Of a stretch of DNA of 64,000 nucleotides, positions 4,766 through 29,846 are shown in pieces. Each line of letters opens with the position of its first letter. Within the stretch, counting starts at the first letter, position 1. Below the pieces are notes generated by a model. It was not told the DNA's origin. It saw only the letters and a list, made by a program, of their open reading frames with translations, and searched no databases. Made by a program: the position numbers and the translations under genes. Source of the DNA: a virus; the IMG/VR virus record IMGVR_UViG_3300048919_000070, positions 1 to 64,000 of that record; one strand, written 5' to 3'.

Positions 4766-6844
4766 CTAAGCCATTTCCGAACCGAATTTAGCGAAATCAT
4801 AGCGGGAAGCGGGCGCGCGGACAATCGCGCCTTTCTCTGTTATGAGTTCGACCATGATATTTTTCTCCCACTCTTCCGCCCACAGCGGCGGCCGGTCCCA
4901 CTGAATGTGTTCAATGCCGATGTAAGGGGAGATGGCACCGGCGATGCAGTATACGCCTAAGTCCCATGCTTCGTTTCGCTCGCTGTTCGGGTTCTCCCAC
5001 CCCTTCGGTGTGCGTACCTCCACGCAGAGTTCACGGTAATAGTCGTCGGACAGCCAGTCCGGATGAACGACCATGCCTTTGCCTGGCGTCATCACCCCCA
5101 GTCGGCCGTCGAACATATCTTTAACCAGGTTGGTGTTGATCAGCAGCACCGGAATTTCCCCGCGCGCGTTGGCGTAACGGTCTTTACGGGTGGAATCCGG
5201 ATACGTCAGCGCCACGCGTGGGGTGTTCGGGGTGTTGCGCCCTTTAATCAGCAGGAATCGCCCGCCCAGTCCATAATCTCCGCTGTTCAACTGACGGTAA
5301 TAATTATACGCGTTAGCTGTCACGCCCGCGCGGCCGCCGGAGTCACAAACGGTCAGTTTGACGGCCATGTGGCCAATGCCGCCTTCCAGTGGGTACTTCG
5401 CGCGGATGACCTGACGCGTGATGGTGTGCCAGTCGTCCAGGTACCCTGCAGGATCGAGCGGTTCCGGATCCCCGTTGTCGTCTAGTCGCTGGTCGTTCTT
5501 CACGATGTCGAACCGGTCAATCAGCACCTGATCAAACGGTTGTCCGGGACGGATGCCCCACACCTGCACCACGAATTTCGACTTCTGGACGTCGATGGTG
5601 GCCATCAGGAACCGGACGTCGTTCGGCACCTGCTTAACCGGCAACGAGATGGCCATGGCCTTAATGCTATCCGGCGACCGGACCGACCGCATAGATTTCG
5701 GCAGGTATGGCATACCCATGTCCGTGTTCCAGAACTTTTTCAATGCCTCTTCCGACATCGTGCGCTGGTACTCGTCCTCGGCGTTCAGGTAGTAGAACAC
5801 CAGCTTTTCCCACGTCACGAATGCGGCGGCCACGCCTTTCAGCCAGTACGAAGCGATAAGGTTATCCGGTACCTCGCCGACCAGTTGGCCATTTTCGATG
5901 CGCATACCTTCCGGCACCCATATACCCCATTGCTGCATTTCTCGGCGGTCTTTGTAGTCGATCAGGCTCCCGCACTCAGGGCAGATCATCTGGACGGTAC
6001 GGGCTTTCTCCAGGTTGGTCGGCTTCGTCTTATCCCACGTCAGCAGTTCGAACCGGCCTTCGAAATACTCTTCGCAGTGCGGGCATGGCCAGAACCACAA
6101 ACGGCGGTCGCCGCGGTTATACAGGTTGGCGATACCATCGCACGGTGGCGCTTCGTGTGGGCTGCGGGCAATCCACTTCGGGTCGATAATCGGCATAGAC
6201 GGCGAGGACTCCGCCATGCACATGGCCATGGAGCCGAACGTGGTGGTACGTTTTGAGCCGAGGTCGAACGGGGAGCCTTCGCCGCCCACGTCCATCGGGA
6301 ATCGGTCATAGTCGGTCATCAAAACTCGCCCGATTGGACGACCCGCCAATTCACCTGGCGCCGGATGCGACAGCGACAGGATGGTGCCGTTTTTGAAGTG
6401 TTTGTCGAACACGTTATCCGCGTCACGCCCTTTCAAAAGCTGCTCGCCGACTTTCTTCGAATGCAGCATAAGACGGTCGATACGACGAATGGAGAAGTCA
6501 CGGGCAAGGTTGTGCGTCGGGTTGTAGATGATCATGTCCATCGGGTCGACGATGGTGGTATACAGCGTGGTATTCAGGATCATGGAGTCCGTCTTACCCG
6601 TCTGCGCCGACATCATCAGCGCCATGGCAATTTTCGTCCTGCTGGTAAACATGTCCATCGGCTCAACCATGTACGGGGTTTCCGAGTTCTTCCATGGTCC
6701 GATGTATGCACCTGGCTGGTAGACGTACCGGTATTTCATCGCCGCCTGCGAAACGGAGATACGTTCCGGCGCGCGGATGGTGTCTACCAGGTCAAGAAAG
6801 ACGTCGTACAGCGAATCGAAGGTCTTAGAGTTCGTCGTTTTCAT
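4766..6844 (-). CDS. Terminase large subunit, lambda gpA-like
   Basis: 692 residues (lambda gpA 641). ATPase motifs are an atypical Walker A, MSAQTGKTD (about residues 78-86), and Walker B RVLMTDYDRF. Two CxxC pairs, CPHC and CPEC, form a likely zinc site between the ATPase and nuclease parts. The nuclease half contains MATIDVQKSKF and TVCDSGGRAG, which carry the acidic residues of the family. It uses ATP to pump DNA into the prohead and cuts concatemers. The start overlaps the end of the small subunit gene by 20 nt, suggesting translational coupling. Confidence 0.93.
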   Translation of the reverse strand: MKTTNSKTFDSLYDVFLDLVDTIRAPERISVSQAAMKYRYVYQPGAYIGPWKNSETPYMVEPMDMFTSRTKIAMALMMSAQTGKTDSMILNTTLYTTIVDPMDMIIYNPTHNLARDFSIRRIDRLMLHSKKVGEQLLKGRDADNVFDKHFKNGTILSLSHPAPGELAGRPIGRVLMTDYDRFPMDVGGEGSPFDLGSKRTTTFGSMAMCMAESSPSMPIIDPKWIARSPHEAPPCDGIANLYNRGDRRLWFWPCPHCEEYFEGRFELLTWDKTKPTNLEKARTVQMICPECGSLIDYKDRREMQQWGIWVPEGMRIENGQLVGEVPDNLIASYWLKGVAAAFVTWEKLVFYYLNAEDEYQRTMSEEALKKFWNTDMGMPYLPKSMRSVRSPDSIKAMAISLPVKQVPNDVRFLMATIDVQKSKFVVQVWGIRPGQPFDQVLIDRFDIVKNDQRLDDNGDPEPLDPAGYLDDWHTITRQVIRAKYPLEGGIGHMAVKLTVCDSGGRAGVTANAYNYYRQLNSGDYGLGGRFLLIKGRNTPNTPRVALTYPDSTRKDRYANARGEIPVLLINTNLVKDMFDGRLGVMTPGKGMVVHPDWLSDDYYRELCVEVRTPKGWENPNSERNEAWDLGVYCIAGAISPYIGIEHIQWDRPPLWAEEWEKNIMVELITEKGAIVRAPASRYDFAKFGSEMA

Positions 6845-14507: not shown

Positions 14508-17137
14508 TGGCTAAAACTTCGCTTCATCAAGTCGGCGAAGACCTGGCCGTTAATGGCTACATCTTTACGCCGATCCGGCGGAAATTGAAGGCGCCGTTAT
14601 TCAAAAACTGGACTACGAACGACTTCGAAGGAAACTGGGAAAACTGGGTTCTGCAACACGGTGATTGCGGGGCCGGCATCCTTACCGCCAAAAACCCTGC
14701 CGTCGACCTGGATATCCGCGACGAAGAACTCGTCGAGCACATGTCTGATTACGTGGAACTGGTGTATGGCAGCGCGCCTACGCGTGTGGGTATGGAGCCG
14801 AAACGCCTGCTGCTGTTCAAACTGTCCGGCGCTAAATTCCAGACCATGAAATCTGTCTGGCATGACGGCGACCCGAAAGACAAAAAGACCCCGAAACACG
14901 AAGTTCAGATCCTGGGGGATGGCCAGCAGTTCATCGCTTTCGGTATCCACCCCGATACGAACAAGCCGTACAAATGGGTGGCCAATGGCGACCCGACAGA
15001 AGTAGACCATGATGCCCTGCCAACGCTGACCGAAGCGCAGGCGTTCGACATCATCGCCGAGTTTGACCGCGAGTGTGCGAAACGCGGGTGGACTCACTCT
15101 ATGGCCGTGCGCGGGCAGTCCCTGGGATGGGACGACGAGGACGAAGAGTACGAAGAAGATGACTGGGTAAACTCCGCCGTCGACCAGTACAGCCAGTATG
15201 ATGGTGATTACGATGAACTGGAGCGCAAAGTTATGCTGCTGCCGGGTGCGGAGGATTACCAGCAGTGGATTCGTGTCATCGCAGCGCTGCAGACCGGTGT
15301 GGAAGACCAGGACCGGGCATACGACATCGCCCTGAAATGGTCGGCGCAGGCCAATAACTTCGACCAGGATGCTTTCGACCAGAAGTGGGACGAGGGATTC
15401 AAGCACGATAAAAAGCGCCTGATCTCCTTCCGTTCGCTGCTGCAGGAAGCCAACGAAATCGAAGACCGCCAGCGCGCGGAAGCCGTCGAAACGCTTATCC
15501 CGAAATTCTCCGGCGCCACCAGCCGCGACGAGTGGGTGGAAGCCGCCAACCATTTCCGCAAAGTCAAGATGTTCGGAATGGCGCGAATGGACGTTGTGAA
15601 GGTCGCCTGCGACAAATACAACGACCTCATGGGGCGCAAGCTGACTCCGGCGGAAATCAAGAAGAACCTGTCATACCGTATCGACCCCGACGACCTGCCA
15701 GGTTGGCTCATGCAGTGGTGTTTCAACCGCCAGACCGGCCTTTTCGTCAACATTCGAAACGGCTCGTCCAGTAGCGTCCAGGCTTTCGACCTCGCCATGC
15801 GCCGCTACATGGTGGACGAAGATCCAGACACGACTCCGGCAAAACTGGCCATGGATATTTACCAGGTTCCGGTGGTGGACGGCGTGATGTATAACCCGCT
15901 GGCGCACGGCGAAACGCCGAACGGCGAGTGGAAGCCTGTTCGTGAATGCGCGGGCCGGCCGGAGTTCTTCCGCTTCTTCGAATCCGACAACCTAGCCTAC
16001 TCCGCGGATAATGGCCGCATCTTCCTGAATACCTTCCATCCGGACACGATGGTGGATATGCCGGACGAATACAGCCAGCGCGACCTGAAAAACATCCAGA
16101 TCATGAAGGACTTTTTCATGGTTCAGTTCCCGGACCACAAAGAGCGCGAGTACGTGATGGAATACTTCGCGTGGGCGATCAAAAACCCAGGGAAGCGAAT
16201 CAACTACGCCCTGATCATCCACGGTTGCCCTGGTTCGGGTAAAACCATCATCCGCGAGATGTTCCGCTGCATCCTGGGTGACGCGAACGTCGGCGAGGTA
16301 AGCAACTCCGACCTGCAGAGTAACTTTACGAAGTGGGCTGAGTCGGACATCGTTAAATTCGTGGAAGAAGTGTCGGTGGTCGGCCACGGTTATGACGTGC
16401 TGAACAATATCAAGCCGTTCATCACTAACCCGATAATCTCCGTCCGCCGTATGCGCGAAGACAGCCTGAAAGTGCGTAACACCGCCAGTTACATCATGGT
16501 GACGAACGACCCTGCAGCGCTGCCGATCGACGACAACGACCGCCGTTATCTGGTGGTGGCCAGTCAGTTCCAGGATAAGAAGCGCGACCTGATCCCGTTC
16601 CTGAAATCTGAGCCGAATTTCTTCAAACGGTTCGACCGCGCTTTCCGTCAATCCGCTGGCGCGCTGCGCAAATGGTTCAGCGAATTCCAGTTCCGGAAAG
16701 ACTTCAATCCTTCCGGTGGCCATGCCCCGATGGACACCATGGCGCGTGAACGAATGATGGCTCTTTCGAAGGACGATTTCACCGATTCCGTGATGACGTG
16801 CGTAAGCGAAAACTCGACTCGCAACGTTTGCCGGGACATCATTTTCATGCCGGATTTGATGGCCTATCTCGATCGGGAAATTGAGAACTTTAAGGCTCCG
16901 AACTCGCGTTCGATTTCACGAAAAATGGAAGCGGCGGGATTCTATCGGGTGGCGTCCACGCACTCCGGTAAAGTTCGCATCGACGGAAAACTGGGACGCT
17001 GCTATTCACCTCAACCGAAGCATTTTGAACGCCCTGACGGTTCCCCGGATGCCGATGAAATTCGTGCATGGCTCGATCGTCATAACGAAGCGAATGTACA
17101 GGAGGAAGACGAATTCGACGAAGATGACATGCTTTAA
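14507..17137 (+). CDS. Primase-polymerase / SF3 helicase fusion
   Basis: 876 residues; ATG 14507 with GGAGG 9 nt upstream. The N-terminal bifunctional primase/polymerase domain has the catalytic AVDLDIRD (Asp67, Asp69) and the later QFIAFGIHPDT. A PriCT-like helical segment is seen around residues 235-320 (DYQQWIRVIAALQTG). The C-terminal helicase has Walker A HGCPGSGKT near residue 575, KFVEEVSV (Walker B) and MVTNDPAALPIDDNDRRY, the sensor/arginine region of D5/SF3-like helicases. It would prime and unwind at the origin. The tail FDEDDML is acidic. A terminator and a repeat field follow directly. Confidence 0.92.
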   Translation: MAKTSLHQVGEDLAVNGYIFTPIRRKLKAPLFKNWTTNDFEGNWENWVLQHGDCGAGILTAKNPAVDLDIRDEELVEHMSDYVELVYGSAPTRVGMEPKRLLLFKLSGAKFQTMKSVWHDGDPKDKKTPKHEVQILGDGQQFIAFGIHPDTNKPYKWVANGDPTEVDHDALPTLTEAQAFDIIAEFDRECAKRGWTHSMAVRGQSLGWDDEDEEYEEDDWVNSAVDQYSQYDGDYDELERKVMLLPGAEDYQQWIRVIAALQTGVEDQDRAYDIALKWSAQANNFDQDAFDQKWDEGFKHDKKRLISFRSLLQEANEIEDRQRAEAVETLIPKFSGATSRDEWVEAANHFRKVKMFGMARMDVVKVACDKYNDLMGRKLTPAEIKKNLSYRIDPDDLPGWLMQWCFNRQTGLFVNIRNGSSSSVQAFDLAMRRYMVDEDPDTTPAKLAMDIYQVPVVDGVMYNPLAHGETPNGEWKPVRECAGRPEFFRFFESDNLAYSADNGRIFLNTFHPDTMVDMPDEYSQRDLKNIQIMKDFFMVQFPDHKEREYVMEYFAWAIKNPGKRINYALIIHGCPGSGKTIIREMFRCILGDANVGEVSNSDLQSNFTKWAESDIVKFVEEVSVVGHGYDVLNNIKPFITNPIISVRRMREDSLKVRNTASYIMVTNDPAALPIDDNDRRYLVVASQFQDKKRDLIPFLKSEPNFFKRFDRAFRQSAGALRKWFSEFQFRKDFNPSGGHAPMDTMARERMMALSKDDFTDSVMTCVSENSTRNVCRDIIFMPDLMAYLDREIENFKAPNSRSISRKMEAAGFYRVASTHSGKVRIDGKLGRCYSPQPKHFERPDGSPDADEIRAWLDRHNEANVQEEDEFDEDDML

Positions 17138-28475: not shown

Positions 28476-28808
28476 ATGCACATGCCAACACTTAAAACCC
28501 ATCGGAAACGCGTGGGACTGACCGGCGACATCCGTTTCCGCAGGCAATGGTTTACCCGCAAGATGATCCTGCAGGTGGCCGTGATTTACGAAGTGGTTAA
28601 GTACCGCTACCCGCAAGAACTGACCGACCCGAACACCCCGTTCACCACGGAGGTCGAGTGGGAGGATGCAGACGGGTCTGCCGCCCTTCGCGTGATGTTC
28701 CGCCTACCGCCATTCGGTCCGAAGCTGGATTTCGGTGATCCTAAAATTCCAGAATTCGCGGGAAACGGCGAGTACAGAAGCGCTCGCAAGGAGTTCGTCA
28801 AGAAATGA
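28476..28808 (+). CDS. Unknown small protein before the methyltransferase
   Basis: 110 residues, ATG 28476 two nt after the previous stop, with GGAG upstream. Basic N-terminal half (TLKTHRKRVGL, RFRRQWFTRKM), then a beta-rich part (FTTEVEWEDADGSAALRVMF) and a basic end. No family recognised. Overlaps the methyltransferase start by 4 nt. Confidence 0.6.
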   Translation: MHMPTLKTHRKRVGLTGDIRFRRQWFTRKMILQVAVIYEVVKYRYPQELTDPNTPFTTEVEWEDADGSAALRVMFRLPPFGPKLDFGDPKIPEFAGNGEYRSARKEFVKK

Positions 28809-29830
28809 CGGTCTACTATAACGAGTTCGACCCTAACGCTGCCGACTGGCTTGAAAACCTGATTTTATCCGGCGACCTGCCCGACGGCGTGGTCGACCGA
28901 AGGAGTATTGTCGATGTCCAACCATCCGACCTTCGCGGCTTTAACGCCTGTCACTTTTTTGCCGGAATTGGCGGCTGGCCGCTCGCCTTACGAATGGCCG
29001 GTTTCCCCGATGACTTTCGCGTATGGACCGGCAGTCCTCCCTGCCAGCCTTTCAGTAACGCCGGAAAACAAAAAGGTCGCAGCGACGATCGCCACCTCGC
29101 GCCAGTCTGGTGCCGACTCGTCAAAGAGTGCCAACCTGCAATTATGTTTGGCGAACAGGTTGAGAACGCTATCAAAAAACATTGGCTCGACGATTTATAC
29201 GATCAACTGGAAATGGCGGGTTACGCCGTGGGATCGGCCGTACTGCCAGGCGGTATCATCGGCGCGCCGCACCGCAGGGAACGAATCATGTTCGGCGCTC
29301 ACCGGCTGGATGTCCCCGACAGTGATGTCGAAAATTGGGGGACGCTCACCGGAGAGTTTGGCCAAACGGCAGGCGGACAGGTTGAAGAGTGGCCGGACGT
29401 CGCTAAGTCCTGGGAACCTGGGCGAGCAACTTACGATGTATTACGCAGCCTGGCCGACGCCCACGGCATCGGACGTGAAGGGATCGGGACCGACCGTCAT
29501 CCGGCAGGACGGGAAGGACAGGACGTGGGATCGGATCGACTTCGCTGCGGAACAGGGATTCAAGACAACAATGCTCCGCATTACATGCCTTGGGGAATTG
29601 TTGACTGGGTCTGCGGCGGGGATGGTAAGTGGCGGCCAATTGAACCCGGCCTTGCCCCGCTGGTTAATGGGTTTTCCGATATCGTGGGACCGGGAAAGTC
29701 CGAGATATTACGCCTGGCTCGCAGTAACAAAACAATCCGGCTTAAAGGCTACGGGAACGCCATCATCCCCGCGCTCGCTGCCGAATTCATCCGAGCCTTT
29801 GTCCTCGCCATTGGCGACAGTCGACTCTGA
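28805..29830 (+). CDS. DNA cytosine-5 methyltransferase
   Basis: 341 residues, ATG 28805 overlapping the previous stop. Motifs: I, CHFFAGIGGWPLAL; IV, TGSPPCQPFSNAG with catalytic Cys80; VI, FGEQVENAI (ENV-type); VIII, HRRERIMF; X, LKGYGNAIIPALAAEFI. The middle holds DGKWRPIEPGLAPLVNGF, typical of phage Dcm-type enzymes before the last motifs. It would methylate phage DNA against host restriction. The gene contains a second, out-of-frame gene (28914-29846) over nine tenths of its length. Confidence 0.9.
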   Translation: MTVYYNEFDPNAADWLENLILSGDLPDGVVDRRSIVDVQPSDLRGFNACHFFAGIGGWPLALRMAGFPDDFRVWTGSPPCQPFSNAGKQKGRSDDRHLAPVWCRLVKECQPAIMFGEQVENAIKKHWLDDLYDQLEMAGYAVGSAVLPGGIIGAPHRRERIMFGAHRLDVPDSDVENWGTLTGEFGQTAGGQVEEWPDVAKSWEPGRATYDVLRSLADAHGIGREGIGTDRHPAGREGQDVGSDRLRCGTGIQDNNAPHYMPWGIVDWVCGGDGKWRPIEPGLAPLVNGFSDIVGPGKSEILRLARSNKTIRLKGYGNAIIPALAAEFIRAFVLAIGDSRL

Positions 29831-29846
29831 GGATGACCTCTTATGA
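28914..29846 (+). CDS. Overlapping gene nested in the cytosine methyltransferase (+1 frame)
   Basis: 310 residues in the +1 frame of the methyltransferase gene. ATG 28914 has AGGAG exactly 8 nt upstream, and its TGA overlaps the next ATG at 29843 as ATGA, both marks of translation. The protein reads coherently: CLANRLRTL, TINWKWRVTPWDRPYCQ, YAAWPTPTASDVKGSG, GGQLNPALPRWLMGFPISW, ending in the acidic DSEDDLL seen on other proteins here. I recall WPTPTASD and LNP-x-W-x-MGFP segments from phage proteins annotated as methyltransferase-related. Function unknown; possibly a methyltransferase partner. Confidence 0.6.
   Translation: MSNHPTFAALTPVTFLPELAAGRSPYEWPVSPMTFAYGPAVLPASLSVTPENKKVAATIATSRQSGADSSKSANLQLCLANRLRTLSKNIGSTIYTINWKWRVTPWDRPYCQAVSSARRTAGNESCSALTGWMSPTVMSKIGGRSPESLAKRQADRLKSGRTSLSPGNLGEQLTMYYAAWPTPTASDVKGSGPTVIRQDGKDRTWDRIDFAAEQGFKTTMLRITCLGELLTGSAAGMVSGGQLNPALPRWLMGFPISWDRESPRYYAWLAVTKQSGLKATGTPSSPRSLPNSSEPLSSPLATVDSEDDLL

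Follow-up and report, generated by a model that had tools for sequence, protein, structure and literature searches.

Multispecific methyltransferases of Bacillus phages, including SPR and phi3T, carry several tandem recognition modules within a single chain and a single reading frame. M.EcoHK31I is a two-polypeptide C5 methyltransferase described by Lee, Kam and Shaw in 1995. The gene of its small chain, too, reportedly overlaps the large-chain gene in another frame. C5 methyltransferases require a large domain, comprising motifs I-VIII and X, together with a small domain that contains the recognition region and motif IX, and naturally split members of the family exist (PMC3404938). In the two-polypeptide M.EcoHK31I (YGGCCR), motifs I-VIII and X are carried by the large chain and motif IX by the smaller chain, with the predicted target-recognition domain placed on the large chain (PMC3404938). 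The two polypeptides of M.AquI (CYCGRG) separate motifs I-VIII from motifs IX-X, with the distal recognition region located on the second chain alongside motif IX (PMC3404938).

The window analysed here is a stretch of 64,000 nucleotides contained in a 64.6-kb virus record, and it is closely related to Erwinia phage pEp_SNUABM_08 (Casjensviridae) and a 64.3-kb "plasmid" of Enterobacter hormaechei. It encodes a C5 methyltransferase (protein A) and, nested in the same DNA, a second protein (protein B). The preliminary description had placed B in the +1 frame of the methyltransferase gene as a frame open for 310 codons, with AGGAG exactly 8 nt ahead of its ATG and a stop codon overlapping the ATG of the next gene (ATGA), and each of these points was confirmed (28914-29843 for B relative to 28805-29830 for A, AGGAG at 28901-28905, ATG of the next gene at 29843). 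No Rfam family was matched in the region. The features are as follows.

28805-29830, + strand: gene A, the large (catalytic) chain of a C5-cytosine methyltransferase, 341 aa, with motifs I-VIII and X, identified by PF00145, PHROG 363 and AlphaFold2
28914-29843, + strand, stop codon at 29844-29846: gene B, nested +1-frame protein of 310 aa and proposed specificity chain, identified by selection and stop depletion
28901-28916, + strand: ribosome-binding site of B (AGGAG) with its ATG at 28914-28916, lying within the A codons for RRSIVDV
29039-29047, + strand: motif IV of A, PCQ with the catalytic Cys, invariant among A homologues
29261-29284, + strand: motif VIII of A, GAPHRRER, from the alignment of A homologues
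29289-29633, + strand: variable/target-recognition region, with frame B selected and frame A a passenger
29307 and 29451, + strand: starts of the B modules at W132 (WMSPT) and W180 (WPTPT), inside the variable region
29634-29690, + strand: motif-IX-like segment of B, GGQLNPALPRWLMGFPISWD, with B-dominated substitution
29741-29827, + strand: motif X of A, LKGYGNAIIP, and the C-terminal helix, from the alignment and a pLDDT of 82-95, with purely A-like substitution
29730-29843, + strand: C-terminal tail of B without constraint, DSEDDLL included, with an A-like substitution spectrum (0.056, 0.019, 0.225) and differing between relatives

Protein A is a catalytic large domain without motif IX and without a folded small domain. 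It belongs to the PF00145 family, possessing motifs I-VIII with the catalytic PCQ as well as motif X, and it also matches PHROG 363, while the alignment to PF00145 (E 3e-21) covers only positions 58-164 of the 324 in the profile. Motif IX was absent from 248 A homologues, and A does not combine motif IX and a target-recognition domain in one chain, as single-chain enzymes do. In the AlphaFold2 model, residues 1-180 and 320-341 were predicted with high confidence and residues 191-264, in the variable region, were disordered. Comparison of this model with M.HhaI gave a Z of 15.2 over 165 aligned residues with an rmsd of 3.0. A thus shares the large-domain fold of the single-chain M.HhaI and M.HaeIII, which, unlike A, are complete with a recognition domain and motif IX of their own.

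The frame on which selection acts changes along the gene. Comparison of five close relatives in the window clade, codon position by codon position, showed that the third positions of A are free to vary upstream of the B start (0.232 per site) and are damped to 0.078 over motifs I-VIII. In the variable region, variation shifts to the first position of A, which is the wobble position of B (A1/B3 0.115 versus A3/B2 0.037), and beyond about 29730 it is back at the A wobble position (0.225). Among 78 independent locus pairs, the first ~45 codons of B were A-like, the stretch up to motif VIII was shared between the frames, the motif-IX-like stretch was B-dominated in 51 pairs and not in 11 (51/62), and the remainder was pure A. 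Substitution counts in the variable region did not separate the frames across the 78 pairs when distant pairs were included, because distant pairs align poorly there; in close, alignable variable regions all 42 of the 42 independent pairs had substitutions dominated by the B wobble position. The protein identity of the variable region was 0.872 for B, 0.693 for A and 0.685 for the meaningless +2 frame (43 pairs, 85% nucleotide identity), with B higher than A in all 43. Since the identity of A is no better than that of the +2 frame, frame A is a passenger in the variable region, and it is frame B, not frame A, that codes for the recognition region. Little constraint was found on the first ~45 and the last ~38 residues of B.

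Protein B ends in a segment of the form LNPxxxxWLMGxPxxW, which is its best-conserved part and resembles canonical motif IX (e.g. RRLTPKECQKLQGFPDWF). The pairing of this segment with canonical motif IX by hhalign was without significance (E 0.088), and when the diverse B alignment (A3) was compared with profiles of canonical methyltransferases, the match did not fall on motif IX. Judged by its pattern of residues, the LNPxxxxWLMG segment may nevertheless represent motif IX. Between the 5th and the 75th percentile of loci, the IX-like segment is separated from motif X of A by 32 nt. B further carries one to eight WxTP modules of ~35 aa each, and the same module can recur at another position in loci that have different modules otherwise (439 module pairs at different positions). 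The modules look like swappable recognition units, and DNA would be contacted by the WxTP modules. Several tandem modules in B, with their presumptive DNA-binding role, are reminiscent of SPR and phi3T, although the modules of the window lie in a nested second gene. Sequence searches of Pfam, NCBIfam and PDB with B revealed no relative, AlphaFold2 modelled B alone poorly (pLDDT 62, pTM 0.34), and the structure search of PDB with that model was empty.

In mycobacteriophages (L185 and L348-L355), A ends after motif VIII, and B possesses motif X (KLIGNGVVVQQ) in addition to the modules and the IX-like segment. Because motif X sits in B in these phages, A lacks motif IX and the recognition region is selected in B, A and B very probably make up a single C5-cytosine DNA methyltransferase split over two chains, with the specificity chain nested in the catalytic gene. 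B is most likely the missing DNA-recognition part of methyltransferase A. The preliminary description had proposed dual coding, which stands, and had named no function; the evidence now points to B as the recognition/motif-IX half of the same enzyme. In the proposed mechanism, A would supply the large catalytic domain with motifs I-VIII and X, SAM binding and the catalytic Cys, and B, translated independently from a ribosome-binding site of its own within gene A, would supply the small domain with the target-recognition modules and motif IX. Neither A nor B would methylate alone, the presumed A+B complex would be the cytosine methyltransferase, and its methylation might shield the phage DNA from host restriction. 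A codon-recoded A expressed alone would lose B and, if the proposal is true, should be inactive. The lack of a recognised family and of a confident fold for B would also suit a real nested protein with another role, such as an anti-restriction factor or a methyltransferase regulator, but this is improbable, as A would then have neither motif IX nor a recognition region under selection, and the shift of motif X into B in mycobacteriophages would be left unexplained.

By anatomy, the window pair would work like M.EcoHK31I, to which it is likened by description and not by sequence, as A corresponds to a large chain with motifs I-VIII and X and without motif IX. Different from M.EcoHK31I, selection evidence places the recognition region of the window pair, a variable module array, on the small chain that is nested; the pair is therefore not filed as a member of the M.EcoHK31I type, whose predicted recognition domain is on the large chain. 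The mycobacteriophage relatives are similar to M.AquI in having motif X in B, and only in these relatives do the IX-like segment and motif X both lie on the second chain. In contrast to M.AquI, motif X of the window belongs to A, and gene B lies inside gene A instead of following it. The window pair is accordingly classified as a natural split C5 methyltransferase of a new layout, widespread in phages and prophages.

The start signals of B are under selection. At the conserved RSIxDV motif of A, codon choice yields GAG and ATG for frame B (63 of 123 loci versus 18.2 expected), and the GAT codon is used at this motif in 86 of 99 loci versus a usage of 0.42 (binomial p ~1e-20 for the codon choice, with the relatedness of the loci ignored). 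These selected signals and the constraint on B upstream of motif VIII favour separate initiation over frameshifting. If B were mainly made by +1 ribosomal frameshifting from A, a single chain of A (motifs I-VIII) and B (recognition region and motif IX) would result with no separate subunit, which would restore the usual motif order I-IX and agree with the passenger state of frame A past motif VIII. Such a route is very doubtful, for constraint on B already exists ahead of motif VIII, in a stretch where the frameshifted chain would still read A, GAG and ATG are selected at the B start, A retains motif X downstream, and a fused gene was found in 0 of 354 loci.

Frame B is a genuine protein under strong purifying selection. 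From motif IV to just upstream of motif X in 79 loci selected by A alone, the +1 frame contained 2 stops versus 239.5 expected, while the +2 control frame of the same loci was not depleted (824 stops versus 749 expected). In 2000 synonymous-codon shuffles of A with its protein sequence kept, frame B was open in none, with a mean of 5.9 stops. Scored against a B-family profile from which the query had been left out along with its two close relatives, the real B reached 217.9 bits versus 84.9 ± 11.2 bits for the shuffles (maximum 123.9). As ~85 bits are imposed by A, similarity alone is weak evidence for B, and it is the excess that counts. That frame B is a chance open frame, its likeness imposed by conserved methyltransferase sequence, has a negligible probability: part of the similarity is indeed forced by A, as the ~85 bits surviving the shuffling and the short matches to the B N-terminal profile in two canonical-methyltransferase loci indicate, but stop depletion, the shift of the wobble position and the shuffle test reject it. 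The codon-level selection analysis over homologues, which had been suggested as a check, thus favours a coding B and, across many homologues, supports the view that two linked proteins are encoded by the same DNA. Same-strand dual coding is strongly supported here and phylogenetically broad, and the selected frame is shown region by region.

B matches PHROG 1008 and 31772 and was found by tblastn in 216 phage records. Of 354 loci taken from viral contigs, phage records and bacterial genomes, 353 have B overlapping A in the +1 frame; the sole exception (L207) contains two tandem A/B methyltransferase pairs that were cross-paired by the script. Neither a fused nor a solitary B was found among the 354 loci. 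The locus sets were drawn up in order of similarity rather than at random, and the least biased of them is the one selected by A. The preliminary description had counted a lack of homologues outside methyltransferase DNA against B, and B was in fact never found without A; since selection on B is independently shown, this constant company reflects obligate nesting, and the coding of B stands. According to their titles, the bacterial loci with the pair include members of the Firmicutes, Proteobacteria, Bacteroidetes, Spirochaetes, Synergistetes, Planctomycetes, Acidobacteria and Nitrospirae. As a control, C5 methyltransferases matching the whole of PF00145 in ten of the same bacterial genomes, relatives of the single-chain M.HhaI and M.HaeIII, showed no open +1 frame, with 7-21 +1 stops as when shuffled; these full-length enzymes either match PF00145 over its whole length or show motif IX in their own frame, and they lack a full-length B. 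The C5 methyltransferases of the same genomes that match PF00145 only to about position 200 had 0 +1 stops and carried B. As only genes with the short PF00145 match have an open +1 frame, B is confined to one class of C5 methyltransferases.

The chances are about even that the loci represent a widespread, never-fused overprinted pair whose specificity is written in the second frame by a series of exchangeable recognition cassettes of ~35 aa each. If so, phages would alter or broaden their methylation specificity by swapping cassettes that have to stay open in both frames, with the catalytic frame a mere passenger. On the split-enzyme reading, the annotated frame of many phage and prophage genes listed as single "DNA cytosine methyltransferases" would specify just one half of the enzyme. 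Should the modules set the specificity, the methylation targets of phages would become readable and testable.

No description of a phage-wide nested gene was found in the literature searched. The A/B arrangement is mostly recorded as a single gene, and B is annotated in a few records: both frames are annotated in K1ind2, as "C-specific methylase" and "Mte8-like", the record of Paenibacillus phage Shelly lists an "internal gene", and the annotated gene of Cronobacter phage JC01 is frame B. The record of the mycobacteriophage Mundrea contains two overlapping "DNA methylase" genes. Only A is annotated (PGAP) in pTO42E (L386, NZ_CP139333.1), the circular 64.3-kb E. hormaechei "plasmid". Since its B is 97.4% identical to that of the window, pTO42E may be a phage-plasmid or a phage assembled together with its host; plasmid searches gave few matches. 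In five loci (L056, L058, L070, L132 and L134) a stop interrupts A and B stays open, and in four others (L109, L120, L122 and L163) a stop lies in the N-terminal ~30-48 codons of B with the rest of B open; sequencing error or decay may account for these stops. Komagataeibacter phage phiKX2 (L184) has an HNH-like open stretch in the A frame after the methyltransferase DNA and before motif X, possibly a mobile insertion.

The acidic DSEDDLL end of B had been likened to the ends of other proteins of this phage and taken as a sign of coding. The occurrence of such tails was confirmed in eight other ORFs, but the tail was rejected as evidence for B, because it differs between close relatives (DSEDALL, ECEDDLL and, in L006, a read-through) and because substitution beyond about 29730 follows frame A alone. 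Among ORFs of at least 70 aa, acidic tails ending in Leu occur in those ending at 17134, 30582, 32956 and 33199 on the + strand and at 6828, 7473, 11564 and 13575 on the - strand, the tails being EDDML, ENEEL, ENDEL, SEDDKL, DEDAL, SEEEL, DEDDLL and ENDEL, two of which have the longer forms DSEDDKL and ADEDDLL. Several of the acidic-tailed ORFs in the window resemble replication or DNA-handling proteins, and a shared docking tail is possible.
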